From NCBI RefSeq assembly GCF_947259345.1, contig NZ_CAMYLS010000007.1, positions 62,001 through 126,000 of the forward strand: a stretch of DNA of 64,000 nt, written 5' to 3'. The stretch is from an uncultured Maricaulis sp. GTDB lineage: Bacteria; Pseudomonadota; Alphaproteobacteria; Caulobacterales; Maricaulaceae. Below are positions 37,558-51,885 of the stretch, in pieces (within the stretch, counting starts at the first letter, position 1; the number at the start of each line of letters is the position of its first letter). The notes beneath the pieces were generated by a model that was given only the letters and a program-made list of their open reading frames with translations, ran no database searches and was not told where the DNA came from. The position numbers and the translations under genes were made by a program.

Positions 37558-37983
37558 TCACGCCTCAATCCCGGCCAGCGCCGCGCGCATTGTGTCCGGG
37601 AGCGCGACCGGGCGGCGCGTGTCGCGGTCGACATAGACATGGACGAAGCGCCCCTGGGCCGCCGGTTCATCCTCGCCCTGTTTGAACAAGCCGATTTCAT
37701 AGGTGACCGAGGAATTCCCCAGCCGCGCCACGCGCACACCGGCCTCGACGGTTTCCGGATAGGCGAGCGGGGCGAAATAATTGCAGCCGGTCTCGACCAC
37801 GAGGCCGATCACGCGGCCGGCATGGATATCCAGCCCGGCCTCCTCGATGAGGAAGCAATTCACCGCTGTGTCGAAGAAGCCGTAATAGGCAGCATTATTG
37901 ATGTGGCCATAGATGTCATTATCGGCCCAGCGGGTCGGCAGGGCACGAAAGCGGGGATAGGCGTCGCGGGCGCGCTTTTCCAT
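37558..37983 (-). CDS. Acyl-CoA thioesterase (4HBT family)
   Basis: The 141-residue hot-dog-fold protein shows the 4-hydroxybenzoyl-CoA thioesterase motif RWADNDIYGHINNAAYYGFF, with the catalytic Asp in DNDIYGHINN. A later TVEAGVRVARLGNSSVTYEI matches the core strand of the family. It hydrolyses an acyl-CoA of unknown chain. Its ATG overlaps the stop codon of the alcohol dehydrogenase gene by one base (TGATG), so the two genes are coupled. Confidence 0.9.
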   Translation of the reverse strand: MEKRARDAYPRFRALPTRWADNDIYGHINNAAYYGFFDTAVNCFLIEEAGLDIHAGRVIGLVVETGCNYFAPLAYPETVEAGVRVARLGNSSVTYEIGLFKQGEDEPAAQGRFVHVYVDRDTRRPVALPDTMRAALAGIEA

Positions 37984-39125
37984 CACAGCACGGCCTCATA
38001 ACAGGCGTGGGCCGCTTCGAGCGTCATCGGGCGCGGATTATTCTTGAGCAGGCGCTCGACCTTCATCGCGTCCTCGGCGAGGCGCGGCAGGTCATTGTGC
38101 GAGACGCCGACCTGGGTCAGGCGCGTTTCGATGCCGACAACGTCGGCGATCCGCTCCATCTCGACAACCAGGGCATCGGTCGAGGCCCCGGGCAGATCGA
38201 GATGGGCCGCCAGCTGCGTATAGAGCGGCTCGGCGCTGGTCGCATTGTAGCGCAGCACCGGCGGCAGCATCAGCGAATTGGATAGCCCGTGCGGGACATG
38301 GAAGATCCCGCCAAGCGGATAGGCCAGCGCATGGACCGCACCGACCGGGGCATTGGCAAAGGCCTGGCCTGTCAGCAAGGCGCCGAGCAACATGTCCTCG
38401 CGCGCCTCGATATCCGCCCCGTCCAGACAGGCCCGCTCGATGGCGCCGTGCAGCTTCTTCAACCCGGCCAACGCCAAGGCGTCGGAGACCGGGTTCTTCT
38501 CGATGGCCGAGGTATAGGCTTCGATACCGTGCACCATGGCGTCAATGCCGGTCGCCGCCGTGACATGACGTGGCAGACCCAGGGTCAGCTCGGCATCCAG
38601 CACGGCCATATCGCCATAGAGCGCCGGATCATTGACCCCCATCTTCGAGGTCTCGCCAACGGTGACCACCGAGATCGGCGTCACTTCGGAGCCCGTACCG
38701 GCGGTCGTCGGGATCAGGATGAGCGGCAGGCGCGCGCCCTTCACCTGATTGACGCCATACATATCGGCCAGGGGCTGATCGCAGCCCAGAAGCAAGGCCA
38801 CCAGCTTGGCGGTATCCATGGACGACCCGCCACCAAAGCCGATCACCAGCTGCGCCCCGAATTCACGCGCCCGTTCGGTCGCCGCCAGCACCATGTCTTC
38901 CGGCGGATCGGCCACGACATCGTCGATCACCAGGACCGAGCGCCCGGCCGCCTCAAGCCCAGCGAGCGCCGCATCGATCAAACCGAACTGGCGCACTCCC
39001 TTGTCAGTCACCAGCACGGCGCGTTCAACCCCGGCCATGAGCGGAGCGGCAATCTCGGTCAACTGGCCGGACGCACCCCGTCCGGCATGAATATGAGGAA
39101 CGGTTCGGAACTGGAATGTGGCCAT
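37983..39125 (-). CDS. Iron-containing alcohol dehydrogenase
   Basis: The 380-residue NAD(P)-dependent enzyme interconverts an alcohol and aldehyde. It shows the nucleotide-binding GFGGGSSMDTAK, IPTTAGTGSEVTPISVV, and metal ligands in TGIDAMVHGIEAY and GAVHALAYPLGGIFHVPHG. Its first 17 codons (39074-39127, with two bases of leader) are repeated exactly at 41384-41437. The S9-like gene now sits between it and the presumed original upstream region. GGGAGAG precedes its present ATG. It is coupled to the thioesterase gene. Confidence 0.95.
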   Translation of the reverse strand: MATFQFRTVPHIHAGRGASGQLTEIAAPLMAGVERAVLVTDKGVRQFGLIDAALAGLEAAGRSVLVIDDVVADPPEDMVLAATERAREFGAQLVIGFGGGSSMDTAKLVALLLGCDQPLADMYGVNQVKGARLPLILIPTTAGTGSEVTPISVVTVGETSKMGVNDPALYGDMAVLDAELTLGLPRHVTAATGIDAMVHGIEAYTSAIEKNPVSDALALAGLKKLHGAIERACLDGADIEAREDMLLGALLTGQAFANAPVGAVHALAYPLGGIFHVPHGLSNSLMLPPVLRYNATSAEPLYTQLAAHLDLPGASTDALVVEMERIADVVGIETRLTQVGVSHNDLPRLAEDAMKVERLLKNNPRPMTLEAAHACYEAVL

Positions 39126-39127
39126 TT
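39074..39127. repeat. 54-bp direct repeat, copy in the intact alcohol dehydrogenase gene
   Basis: This segment, covering the ATG and codons 1-17 of the alcohol dehydrogenase, is identical over 54 nt to 41384-41437, a displacement of 2310 bp. Flanking bases differ on both sides. The pair brackets the S9-like gene. Confidence 0.95.
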
Positions 39128-39153
39128 ATGCAATCTCTCCCGATGATGCCGGC

Positions 39154-41379
39154 TCAGCGCCCATCGCTTGACGCGTCCATGCCGTATGGTGCAGCGGTGT
39201 TTTCAGCAATGAAATTAGACAGGTGGTCGAGAACAACTGCCTGCTCCTCGCCGGGCAACAACCAGAAGACCCGGTGCTGGCACTCAATCGGCTCGGCAGC
39301 CACCGGCCATTGAACCGCCTCAAGGGCCTCAAGCACATCACTGGCAATGTCAAAAGATTGGCCTGGAAACGCATCACAATTCAGTACGGTGACAGCGGTA
39401 TCGTGTTCCGGCAGCCGCACAGCTTCCAGAATTGACCGCGCAATCGCTGAGAGTTTCGTTAAGGCCGTTGAATAGTGGTTGGCGCCAGGCTCGGGGTATT
39501 GGAGATAGGGATAGAAGATCAAGCTCCCGGTGACGGCAACATTTCCAACGTAGTAGTGGTGGGCCGTATAAGTTGAGCTTCGGTCCAGCCGAACCCCGAA
39601 GTTACTGTCGCCCGCAAGATCTGGCACTACGATCGCGCACCTCGCACCTCCGGCGCCTTCGGACAGAGAGCCAATGGCGAAGGACGATCCCTTGCGGAAC
39701 CCAAGAAGGCACGTTCGGGCGGAATCAAGCGATTCATCATCAGATATCCACGCCATCGCACCGCTGACATCGTCAAAAAACCTTGTTCCCGCATCCGCTT
39801 GGTTCACACGCCAGGCATCAAGGCCGCGGCCCGTACCGCCCCTTGCTTCCAATTCAATAACCGTAAAACCAAGCGCGGCGAGGTATTGACGCCGGATATC
39901 CATTCGATCGGAAATCGGCGCGCTCATGGTCTCGGGCATCAAGATTACCGACGCGCCGAAATTGTCTGCGCTCGGATCGCCTCTCAAGACGATCGCGTGC
40001 GCCGGACTATCCGAGTCTGATGGAATGAGAATTCGCTCAGGCGTGGATATGATGTCGTCGAACGCGCTGGACCTCTCACGACCGATCAAACGTAGCTGAG
40101 CATCTCTTGTATCCAGTACATAATAGCTGGCATGGCCATCATGATTGACCGCGCGAACAGTCCAAACAGTTCGGTCAACATCCCAACTCTCGACCTCAAC
40201 GGATCGACCGCGAAGCGAATCCGAGACCAACGAGTGAATACGGCGCACTTCCGGATCAAGATAGTCGACATCTCCGCGAGTTCCGAGCCGCCGAACACCC
40301 ACCAAACGGTTCGTGTGCCGGTCTCTAAGATAAGCGCCCTGATTTCCGCCCACATCAACTTCGGACGATTGAACGACAGGTCCGAACACGGCTCCGTCGT
40401 CCAGGTTCAAGCCGAAAACTGCCAGCCTGCCATTGTAGACGCTTGAGAACGCTACGGTCCGTCCATCGGGCAATATACCCGCCATGTCAGCCGCACGCCC
40501 AAGGCCATCGTGAGCGCCTTCAGACAGTGCTTCGGAGTCGAGCAAATCAACGTCCCTCCAATTGCCCTCTCGACGCACGCGCACATAGAACGAGCGATTA
40601 TTGTCCCAATCGCGAATGGCTCGGTTGAATCCGCCACTTTCTCGCCCGCTGGAATTCACCATTTGCACCAACGGAACTCCATTTGAATCAATCAGATAGG
40701 TTGCCGACAGGCTTCCGGTGAACTCACGCCGCATCTGGCCCGTCTCGAGATTTCGAATGAAGAGTGCCACATCGTCATCCAGTGACGAATTGGTCCGACC
40801 GACGGTTTGCCCAGCTCGTGTTACAGGCATCCAGAAGAGGACACTCTCCGGGTCCGCTGGGAGCGTCCCGGCCAATACAGCGAGTTGGTCCAGCTCCTGT
40901 GCCTGCATTGAGACAAGTGAGTATATGTAGCTGCGCGCGACTAGCCGAACGATGCCTCGATCACGGTCTCGTACTTGGTCCTGATACTTGAGCAGGAGAT
41001 GATTAGAGCCTAACCACTCCGCATTTAACAAGCGGTTTTGCCCACTCGCATCGATCGTGTCGGTTTCCGAACCATCCAGAGAAACGATTACCAAGCGACG
41101 CCCCGACTGAGAGAGCCCAACAAGGGCCAAGAGGCGATTCCCGTCTGGCGAGACGCGGACATTTTCCATCAAAGGAAGCTCGGTGAGAACGTCCACAACC
41201 GCACGCTCCTGCACCGCGGCCCCTCCAACAGCGGTCCAGACGACAGATAAAAGTAAGGCAAGAAGGGCTCTGCGGACCGCGCGGCGCGCGCCGACGCGGA
41301 TAGACGCCACCCATCTGGAACCGCCACGTCGGCCCAAAGCCTCAAACCCGAGTGCCGATCCCGAATCCAGCCCGGTCAT
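39154..41379 (-). CDS. S9-family peptidase-like protein, probable pseudoenzyme
   Basis: The 741-residue protein has an N-terminal membrane or signal segment (ALLALLLSVVWTAVGGAA, about 38-55), a WD40-like beta-propeller region and a C-terminal alpha/beta-hydrolase fold like prolyl oligopeptidases. The GxSxGG nucleophile loop is replaced by GFRKGSS (560-566), with Arg where Ser is expected; the Asp (D669) and His (H702) positions look retained. Sampled lines give 52-62% GC, below neighbours. Its ATG at 41379 overlaps the stop of a 19-codon leader. It lies between 54-bp repeats. Confidence 0.8.
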   Translation of the reverse strand: MTGLDSGSALGFEALGRRGGSRWVASIRVGARRAVRRALLALLLSVVWTAVGGAAVQERAVVDVLTELPLMENVRVSPDGNRLLALVGLSQSGRRLVIVSLDGSETDTIDASGQNRLLNAEWLGSNHLLLKYQDQVRDRDRGIVRLVARSYIYSLVSMQAQELDQLAVLAGTLPADPESVLFWMPVTRAGQTVGRTNSSLDDDVALFIRNLETGQMRREFTGSLSATYLIDSNGVPLVQMVNSSGRESGGFNRAIRDWDNNRSFYVRVRREGNWRDVDLLDSEALSEGAHDGLGRAADMAGILPDGRTVAFSSVYNGRLAVFGLNLDDGAVFGPVVQSSEVDVGGNQGAYLRDRHTNRLVGVRRLGTRGDVDYLDPEVRRIHSLVSDSLRGRSVEVESWDVDRTVWTVRAVNHDGHASYYVLDTRDAQLRLIGRERSSAFDDIISTPERILIPSDSDSPAHAIVLRGDPSADNFGASVILMPETMSAPISDRMDIRRQYLAALGFTVIELEARGGTGRGLDAWRVNQADAGTRFFDDVSGAMAWISDDESLDSARTCLLGFRKGSSFAIGSLSEGAGGARCAIVVPDLAGDSNFGVRLDRSSTYTAHHYYVGNVAVTGSLIFYPYLQYPEPGANHYSTALTKLSAIARSILEAVRLPEHDTAVTVLNCDAFPGQSFDIASDVLEALEAVQWPVAAEPIECQHRVFWLLPGEEQAVVLDHLSNFIAENTAAPYGMDASSDGR

Positions 41380-41435
41380 GATACACCCCGTCCGGCATGA
41401 ATATGAGGAACGGTTCGGAACTGGAATGTGGCCAT
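41376..41435 (-). pseudogene. Truncated alcohol dehydrogenase 5' end acting as a 19-codon leader
   Basis: The copy of the dehydrogenase start encodes MATFQFRTVPHIHAGRG, then VS and a TGA stop at 41378-41376. The TGA overlaps the ATG of the S9-like gene (ATGA). GAGAG lies about 8 nt before this leader ATG. The small frame therefore probably drives translation of the S9-like gene by termination-reinitiation. It is too short to be functional as an enzyme. Confidence 0.85.
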
Positions 41436-41437
41436 TT
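41384..41437. repeat. 54-bp direct repeat, upstream copy
   Basis: This is identical to 39074-39127. It sits at the far end of the 2.3-kb segment and includes the dehydrogenase start codon. Upstream (41438-41700) is a low-GC non-coding stretch that is the likely ancestral promoter region of the dehydrogenase. Confidence 0.95.
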
Positions 41438-41700
41438 TGGACTCTCAACACCGGAATACAGTTAACGGTATGTTTTCCATGTCCTAGCGGGACGGGCTTG
41501 GCAAGGGGAGGGAAGATCGCAGTTTAACGCTCATTTTCTACGCATTTGAATTGATTGAATATGGTTGGTTAATATGGCGAGATAGCCTGCCATTGCAGGC
41601 GATTAGGACCCGACTGCTCATTTTGAAATACTGGCGAACAGCGTTCAAAAAATCTAGTTTGGGCCGGTAAGAAAAACAAAATCGTGTTAGGTGATTGAGT
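41438..41700. other. Low-GC intergenic region between divergent genes
   Basis: This 263-bp stretch is clearly A/T-richer than the surrounding genes (for example around 41520-41580). It separates the leader/S9-like/dehydrogenase unit (minus) from the STAS-like gene (plus) and should hold both promoters. I see no gene in it. Confidence 0.5.
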
Positions 41701-42078
41701 ATGACGGTGCGGGTGACCCTTATCGACGGCGGTAGCGTCGTTGAAATCAAGGCCAGTGGGCAAGCGACGCGTCGCGAGGCGGGCTGGGCGACTGAACGTG
41801 CGCGTGAGCTGAGCGCAAATAATGATGTGATGGCGATCCTCGCCGACTGCCAGGACGCAGAGCCCCAGCAATCACCACAGCTCTCCGCAGAGATAATCGA
41901 GAACTTCCTGTTCGCGCTCGAGCGGCCGCTCCCCAGCGCCTACATCGTGCCGCTGGTCTGGGATGAAACCTATGCGAAGGCCGTGCGCAAGGAGTTGATC
42001 GAATTGCCGCCGAATGCGCGATTTTTTACAGATCGCGAAAGCGCGCTCGACTGGCTCGCCGGTTTTCAGGCCGCCTGA
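41701..42078 (+). CDS. Hypothetical STAS/SpoIIAA-like protein
   Basis: The 125-residue cytoplasmic protein has alternating strands and helices: MTVRVTLIDGGSVVEIKASG, a helix with ERARELSANNDVMAILADC, then ERPLPSAYIVPLVWDE and a final ARFFTDRESALDWLAGF. This resembles SpoIIAA/STAS-like single-domain proteins, but the match is by pattern only. AGGTGA lies 6 nt before the ATG; a TTG two codons earlier is less likely. A strong terminator follows. Confidence 0.7.
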   Translation: MTVRVTLIDGGSVVEIKASGQATRREAGWATERARELSANNDVMAILADCQDAEPQQSPQLSAEIIENFLFALERPLPSAYIVPLVWDETYAKAVRKELIELPPNARFFTDRESALDWLAGFQAA

Positions 42079-50642: not shown

Positions 50643-50667
50643 TTGAACTTTGGAGCAATCGCCAAGC

Positions 50668-51447
50668 CTAGCTTTCGCGTTCGACCATCATCTGCTTGAT
50701 CTCGCCAATGGCTTCAGCCGGGTTGAGGCCCTTCGGGCAGACCTGGGCGCAGTTCATGATGGTGTGGCAGCGATAGAGTTTGAACGGGTCATTGAGCTCG
50801 TCGAGGCGCTCGCCGGTGGCTTCGTCGCGACTGTCGGCGAGCCAGCGATAGGCCTGCAGCAGCGCCGCCGGACCCATGTATTTGTCGCCATTCCACCAAT
50901 AGGACGGGCAGGCCGTGGAGCAGGAAGCGCACATGATGCACTCGTAAAGTCCATCCAGCTTTTCGCGCTGTTCGGGGCTCTGCTTCCATTCTTTTTCCGG
51001 CGCCGGCGTGTCGGTCTTGAGATAGGGCTTCACGGCGGCGTGCTGGGCGTAAAACTGCGTCAGGTCCGGGATCAGGTCGCGGACCACCGGCTGGTGCGGC
51101 AGCGGCGAGATAGTGATGTCGCCCTTGTACTCGTCAATGCCCGACGTGCAGGCGATCGTGTTACGGCCACCGATATTCATCGAGCAGGACCCGCAAACGC
51201 CTTCGCGGCAGGAACGCCGGAAGGCCAGCGAGGCGTCGACATTGTTCTTGATCCACAACAGGGCATCGAGAACCATCGGCCCGCAATCATCCATGTCCAC
51301 CTTGTAGGTGTCCCAGCTCGGATTCTCGTCGGTTTCCGGATTATAGCGGTAGACCTTGAAAGTGCGCGTATTCTTCGCCCCGTCCGGTGTCGGGTGGGTC
51401 TTGCCCTTTTTTGGGGCGGAGCCTTTGGGGAGTGTCAGCTGAACCAT
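50668..51447 (-). CDS. sdhB: Succinate dehydrogenase iron-sulfur subunit
   Basis: SdhB carries electrons from FAD to ubiquinone. The 259-residue protein shows the [2Fe-2S] ligands in [15 protein letters not shown], the [4Fe-4S] motif [15 protein letters not shown] and the [3Fe-4S] motif [17 protein letters not shown]. All clusters look complete. It is the last gene of the sdhCDAB set, but a DUF3052 gene lies between it and sdhA. A terminator follows. Confidence 0.98.
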
Positions 51448-51459
51448 TTGGGTCCTCGT

Positions 51460-51885
51460 TCAGTTCACGACGCGCTTGGGGCGCGGGATCATCAGTTTCA
51501 GGCCGGACCAGATCGCGTCGACGGCGCAAACCTTCACATCGACCAGGTCGATGGGCAGGGCGACATCGCGGATCACGTCCTCGGTCATGTCGGTTTCGAC
51601 TTTCGACGCCTTCTTGGGCCAGGAGACCCAGATCATGCCGTCTTGCCGGATGGATGAGCGCAGGCGCGGCAGATCGGTTTCGAACTCGGCGCGCACCTTG
51701 GTGAAATAGTGCACATAGTCGAGCTCGTCGCCGGCATCCGCAGACGCTTGCTCGCGGTCAAAGACCGCCGCCGAGCGCAGTGCGTCATGCGCCTCGGGCA
51801 AATTCAGGAAGGCCACCGCCTGCCCGTCCTTGAGACCGAGCTTTTTTGGCAGGGGCGTGCCTGAATATCCGGCGGTCTGCGCCAT
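51460..51885 (-). CDS. DUF3052 family protein within the sdh operon
   Basis: The 141-residue protein (start MAQTAGYSGTPLPKKLGLKD) matches DUF3052, a small cytoplasmic family with the pattern YFTKVRAEFETDLPRLRSSI and MIWVSWPKKASK near the C-terminal half. Function is unknown. It begins 2 nt after the sdhA stop and ends 12 nt before sdhB, so is fully inside the operon. The frame extends upstream over sdhA without similarity, so I start at 51885. Confidence 0.88.
   Translation of the reverse strand: MAQTAGYSGTPLPKKLGLKDGQAVAFLNLPEAHDALRSAAVFDREQASADAGDELDYVHYFTKVRAEFETDLPRLRSSIRQDGMIWVSWPKKASKVETDMTEDVIRDVALPIDLVDVKVCAVDAIWSGLKLMIPRPKRVVN

Follow-up and report, generated by a model that had tools for sequence, protein, structure and literature searches.

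The window analyzed here, a 64,000-nt stretch of DNA from an uncultured Maricaulis sp. (contig NZ_CAMYLS010000007.1, positions 62,001 to 126,000), contains an iron-containing alcohol dehydrogenase (ADH) gene whose 5′ end is present twice, with a 2256-bp segment carrying one gene related to the S9 peptidases placed between the two copies. The insertion of these 2256 bp in the window lineage with an exact 54-bp target duplication is well supported, because relatives have single-copy empty sites. The segment holds one gene and no visible transposition machinery. The reading favored here, which we consider likely, is that a foreign or relocated single gene was inserted after ADH codon 17 by illegitimate recombination or template switching and that a leader, the S9-like gene and ADH now form an operon.

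Direct comparison reveals no difference in 54 nt between the two copies at 39074-39127 and 41384-41437, both on the minus strand, confirming the coordinates and the identity given in a preliminary description of this stretch. Read in the ADH sense, each copy is composed of AA, 2 nt of the 5′ untranslated region (5′UTR), followed by 52 nt of coding sequence (the ATG and a further 49 nt, making 17 codons plus 1 nt), so that both represent the start of the same dehydrogenase as had been proposed. The downstream copy is the start of the intact 380-codon ADH gene (37983..39125, minus strand, identified from the open reading frame (ORF) list and a family match), the target of the insertion, with its ATG at 39125. 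The upstream copy has its ATG at 41435 and is joined to the native promoter region and 5′UTR, its flank matching the empty sites. The repeat unit is 2310 bp, of which 39128-41383 (2256 bp) is unique insert. The 54-nt pair is the sole exact direct repeat of at least 26 nt in the window at a spacing of 60-15,000 nt and is therefore not a chance occurrence. It is also the sole exact repeat of at least 32 nt, at a spacing of 150-15,000 nt, across 56 stretches of the same genome covering 1,140,983 of its 3,248,238 bases, window included; each stretch was scanned separately, and a pair split between two of them would go unseen. Five exact repeats of at least 24 nt occur in these stretches at that spacing; those other than the 54-nt pair are 25-31 nt long, and the next longest, at 31 nt, is the 3′ end of a tRNA. 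The scan was also run on 25 stretches (498,407 bases) from five other Maricaulis genomes, in which most repeats fall within a single glycine-rich repeat region (L217). It reports exact matches, and diverged, older events would escape it.

The empty sites are seen most directly in the genus Maricaulis. The amino acid identity of ADH is 96% to an uncultured Maricaulis sp. and 93% to M. maris, the closest named loci, and the gene is present in 17 of the 18 other Maricaulis genomes, G013, which is 65% complete, being the one in which it was not found. Upstream lies a divergent SpoIIAA-like gene (41701..42078, plus strand, with a Pfam match below its cut-off), a conserved neighbor used as the marker for the empty-site distance. 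This neighbor is seen in 16 of the 17 genomes with ADH, 14 of which place it 251-355 nt from the ADH start, whereas the distance is 2575 nt in the window, compared with 745 nt in G002 and 1005 nt in G005; in G011 the neighbor was not found in the approximately 1.2 kb of upstream sequence covered. No insert is seen in the upstream stretches of the 17 genomes. In a DNA search of 60 relatives the ADH part and the upstream part match several Maricaulis genomes, and the middle matches nowhere. A second ADH start was absent within about 4 kb upstream (or to the end of the stored sequence) at 80 loci, the best 80 of 282 relatives in the genome-contig collection, with a best score of 32/54 matches; for loci matched only from residue 2-4 onward, the ADH start used lies a few codons inside the gene. 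Loci L071-L079 come from the same genomes as nine of the relatives with G handles and are not independent evidence. Alignment of the flanks, for which 7/9 relative rows were used (the G006 and G014 rows are uninformative), shows that the sequence above the upper copy and the sequence below the lower copy are both ancestral neighbors, most clearly in G015, G010, G018 and G016. Since ancestral flank runs directly into the 54 nt from either side, neither copy can be named the new one. The earlier proposal that the ADH 5′ end was duplicated on insertion is borne out by these sites, which provide the confirmation it had asked for, an empty site with one dehydrogenase start in relatives.

The inserted segment (39128..41383, minus strand) has a GC content of 0.571 compared with 0.624 for the window. 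Between its two 40-nt ends the best match as a terminal inverted repeat is 15/32, which is equalled by 15% of 500 shuffles. A single gene between the copies is plausible by length and homology, the S9-like gene, and no transposase or recombinase is seen within the unit, the other ORFs being short and without a family search. The preliminary description thus correctly reported no transposase or terminal inverted repeat; its one S9-peptidase-like gene stands as the single plausible gene, with the reservation that the catalytic serine is replaced. A DNA search of the genome reveals no second copy of the insert, the next match in a protein search being 27% identical, and the 5′ part of the insert has chance-level matches only (best other E 0.067). 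The segment therefore differs from a transposon or insertion sequence in having no terminal inverted repeats, transposase or further genome copies found. As regards an integron gene cassette, known attC sites are longer than the 28-nt spacer 3′ of the S9-like gene.

The search for a donor, which the preliminary description had suggested making through copies of the S9-like gene elsewhere, was unsuccessful. The insert has no DNA relatives in the 60 related genomes, where the protein search gives nothing above Maricaulis S9 genes of 26-28% identity. Among 137 family genomes at E 1e-42 only the genome itself and G001, through a 28% identical S9 gene, are matched, and nothing is added by 385 class genomes at 1e-45 or 398 phylum genomes at 1e-30; all three sets include the genome itself, and the class and phylum sets are samples. 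A single-protein query of the genome-contig and viral-contig collections, which detects close relatives only, found none, and phages gave no match and plasmids one weak S9 match.

Some information on age is provided by G006 (locus L071), the nearest species, which differs at 3/54 sites of the duplicated stretch. Both window copies share all three differences, placing the duplication after the split from G006, barring gene conversion. The absence of differences in 54 sites bounds the divergence of the copies below 5.4% (95%) and nothing finer. A recent event, previously argued from the perfect identity of the copies, is therefore weakly supported by these site counts: an origin after the G006 split stands, unless gene conversion occurred, and the identity itself dates the event no more closely than this bound.

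In the favored reading, illegitimate recombination (non-homologous and possibly microhomology-guided) would place the gene just after ADH codon 17. A strand would leave ADH after this codon, copy or join 2256 bp of donor DNA and re-enter ADH 54 bp earlier, so that the start region would come to lie on both sides of the insert. Through the upstream copy, a short leader would stay under the native promoter, its stop codon overlapping the ATG of the S9-like gene and allowing translational coupling, and full-length ADH would receive a ribosome-binding site from the 3′ end of the insert. The result would be a predicted operon of leader, S9-like gene and ADH. The insertion would be tolerated through the retained promoter and the supplied ribosome-binding site. 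We infer both the recombination mechanism, including any role of microhomology, and the functional reading.

The elements of this predicted operon can be located in the sequence. The near-palindrome ACCGTTAACTGTA (41457..41469, minus strand) is conserved in the ADH promoter region of Maricaulis and is found approximately 30-35 nt ahead of the ADH start in 8/9 loci of the genus in the genome-contig collection with an exact core, being missing in L079 (G005). In the window it occupies the matching place before the upper copy, beginning 34 nt before the leader ATG and so now upstream of the leader and the S9-like gene, and it was not found within 300 nt before ADH itself. The leader ORF (41376..41435, minus strand), identified by reading the sequence, derives from the duplicated ADH start and has 19 codons, MATFQFRTVPHIHAGRGVS plus the stop, with its TGA overlapping the S9-like ATG as ATGA, a classical layout for translational coupling. 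The 28-nt spacer between the S9-like stop and the ADH start (39126..39153, minus strand) contains a Shine-Dalgarno-like GGGAG with an anti-Shine-Dalgarno (anti-SD) pairing energy before ADH at its new place of −7.4 kcal/mol, a value reached by 3.2% of 12,792 sampled window positions; the native 5′UTR, taken one base off, gives about −3.0 kcal/mol (53% of positions). The insert thus appears to supply a ribosome-binding site to ADH, which has probably kept a translation signal, and both genes can probably still be made after the insertion.

Several points weigh against this reading or against parts of it. The S9-like gene has an alternative in-frame start, GTG at 41310, which suits the signal peptide better by eye, and the gene may start there, in which case the ATGA overlap would mean nothing. 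Anti-SD pairing is −5.5 kcal/mol before this GTG and −6.3 kcal/mol before the ATG, the latter being unremarkable as 9.4% of the 12,792 positions are as good. The spacing of the ADH ribosome-binding site is rather long at 11 nt by eye, and native ADH starts in nine relatives range from −2.7 to −10.3, an interval that includes the stronger site seen here. The leader overlap and the new ribosome-binding site have each been observed only once. The insert is seen in one genome only, which precludes a comparison of junctions between strains, and because no donor was found microhomology at the joints cannot be demonstrated.

Campbell-type integration is an unlikely alternative source of the arrangement. 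A circle carrying the S9-like gene and at least 54 bp of an ADH start from the same species would enter by one homologous crossover and leave direct repeats, a process that yields exactly the footprint seen, perfect repeats included, and that, once a first illegitimate event had taken place elsewhere, could carry the arrangement to other members of the species. A length of 54 bp is short for RecA-dependent recombination, and an earlier event placing the ADH start of this lineage on the donor is required; in the collections searched, a close relative of the gene was not found in phages, viral contigs or plasmids. A circle model of this kind has been drawn for transposed genes in Arabidopsis with flanking repeats that match the empty site (PMC2869330).

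The position of the boundaries near the gene edges, together with the long exact target duplication, could also be produced by an undescribed mobile element moving single genes through a 54-bp staggered cut with its enzyme acting in trans, a further challenge to the favored reading. Such an element is very improbable given the missing terminal inverted repeat, the lack of an enzyme in the insert and of a second copy, and the absence of a comparable repeat in the 1.14 Mb scanned. There is slightly less reason to expect a route guided by start codons, in which the donor would break at two places, its ribosome-binding site and the start codon of the gene that follows, pair with a resident start region and insert while duplicating the start; if true, it would place an incoming gene behind a resident promoter and ahead of the gene which that promoter serves, with both translatable. 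An assembly or library artefact is hardly to be expected: common assembler word lengths are close to 54 nt, but both junctions lie well within a 189-kb contig, and an assembly error would be unlikely to create two new joints with an unbroken S9-related gene of 741 codons in between. Least credible of all is an ancestral arrangement lost by the relatives, for although deletion between direct repeats would recreate the exact empty site, loss in every Maricaulis lineage examined would be needed, the two copies have the same three differences from G006 in their 54 nt, and among the family genomes a match at E 1e-42 occurs outside the window genome only in G001, to its 28% identical S9 gene.

Illegitimate recombination with a long target duplication has precedents. 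Insertion with long target duplication was reportedly found for restriction-modification genes of Helicobacter pylori by Nobusato et al. in 2000 (Gene 259:99) and Furuta et al. in 2010. A duplication of 54 bp is too long for the common transposons, and to this extent the earlier remark that it exceeds an ordinary target duplication stands, but long target duplications are described in bacteria. PMC3031569, PMC1643837, PMC3154945 and PMC4978471 describe them for restriction-modification genes, and in the first two of these a long target duplication surrounds a gene that one genome has and its relative lacks. The Maricaulis locus is alike in that the insert is in the window genome and not seen in the 17 Maricaulis genomes with ADH, and in that the exact 54-nt flanking repeat is single-copy at the empty site. 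It differs in that the gene is not a restriction-modification gene, an association that is frequent and not strictly defining, in its alphaproteobacterial host, and in that the duplicated piece is a gene start keeping the promoter and reading arrangement usable. Of such insertions, among which the duplication length would be expected to vary, only one was found in the 1.14 Mb scanned here. PMC11111574, citing Li and Bock 2019, describes how transferred genes can capture a resident promoter through illegitimate recombination; there, as here, homology is short or lacking and the incoming gene lands behind a resident promoter, the difference being that in that account a tandem duplication fuses the gene to the promoter, whereas here a 54-bp target duplication flanks the gene.

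The Maricaulis locus is accordingly a clean single example of an uncommon event type already described, its regulatory outcome unproven, and a single case does not establish a new mechanism. How a single gene can join an established operon with no mobile element involved is a standing question in genome evolution, and this locus keeps an exact footprint of such an entry, with both joints, the duplicated target and empty sites in named relatives. It suggests how a duplicated start region can leave the host gene and the incoming gene both expressible, and with it the known cases of insertion with long target duplication would come to include a gene that has nothing to do with restriction-modification. 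Excision between the two repeats is directly testable at the locus.

The S9-like gene itself (39154..41379, minus strand, identified from its ORF, homology and alignments) has 741 codons from the ATG at 41379 and encodes a divergent protein with a probable signal peptide by eye. Its GC content at third codon positions (GC3) is 0.59, and only one of 42 window ORFs (median 0.73) has a lower value, these ORFs being taken longest first without overlap and some possibly not being genes. The match to Pfam Peptidase_S9 (PF00326) has an E of 1.2e-4 and 22.1 bits, under the 22.6 cut-off, and no NCBIfam or PADLOC match is found at E 0.1. The six best relatives are Maricaulis S9 proteins with 26-28% identity over approximately 545 residues (about 34-582; best E 2.9e-43), whose genes adjoin a dcd-like gene (named by eye). 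Over this region the insert protein has detectable homology to these members of the S9 (prolyl oligopeptidase) family, its own match to the family profile lying below the Pfam cut-off. The insert protein differs from the family, beyond its Pfam score, in two respects: the nucleophile serine is replaced by arginine in two alignments (GFRKG compared with GWSYG/GWSNG), and the last 160 residues cannot be aligned. For the catalytic Asp and His, the alignment of this C-terminal part is not reliable, and the aligned positions show no convincing pair. A 36-row tree gives the protein a branch of approximately 2.8 changes per site, so long that its position is unsure. A single-sequence AlphaFold2 model had a mean predicted local distance difference test score (pLDDT) of 35.7 and was not used. 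Most likely this is an exported S9 relative that has lost its catalytic activity.

Another S9 gene with an altered motif occurs at L060 9581-11695 in G016, the third gene of a tandem S9 array beside the dcd-like gene, where the serine motif reads GGDLGG compared with GWSYGG; from this substitution it is probably another inactive S9 paralogue in Maricaulis. Elsewhere in the window, GC3 among the 42 long ORFs is lowest, at 0.56, in a 335-codon ORF at 50650-51657 on the plus strand, which is possibly acquired, or not a real gene.

The exact ACCGTTAACTGTA pattern occurs once in the whole genome and there is therefore no sign of a regulon; the near-palindrome, taken as window 41456-41471, is a possible operator of a dedicated regulator. 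In the same promoter region, the longer gaps of G005 (1005 nt) and G002 (745 nt) were considered as similar insertions and rejected, as the gap is SpoIIAA-like sequence, apparently decayed in G002; an ADH duplication is not seen in G005 and none is apparent in the G002 stretch. In both genomes (L079 for G005 and L017 for G002) the extra SpoIIAA-like sequence occupies the interval where other Maricaulis have the ADH promoter.

Two further repeats were encountered. In G016 a 38-nt exact direct repeat (L216 3725-3762 and 8469-8506) with its copies 4.7 kb apart flanks a 1384-codon ORF that is surface-protein-like by eye. In the window genome, on contig C14, L170 15960-18515 contains an intact tRNA-Thr gene (ARAGORN) and, 2.48 kb downstream, an apparent degenerate second copy with 31 nt of the 3′ end in common. 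Between the tRNA-Thr copies lie genes that by eye encode a regulator resembling the AraC type and a membrane protein, and the region looks like a small tRNA-associated island.

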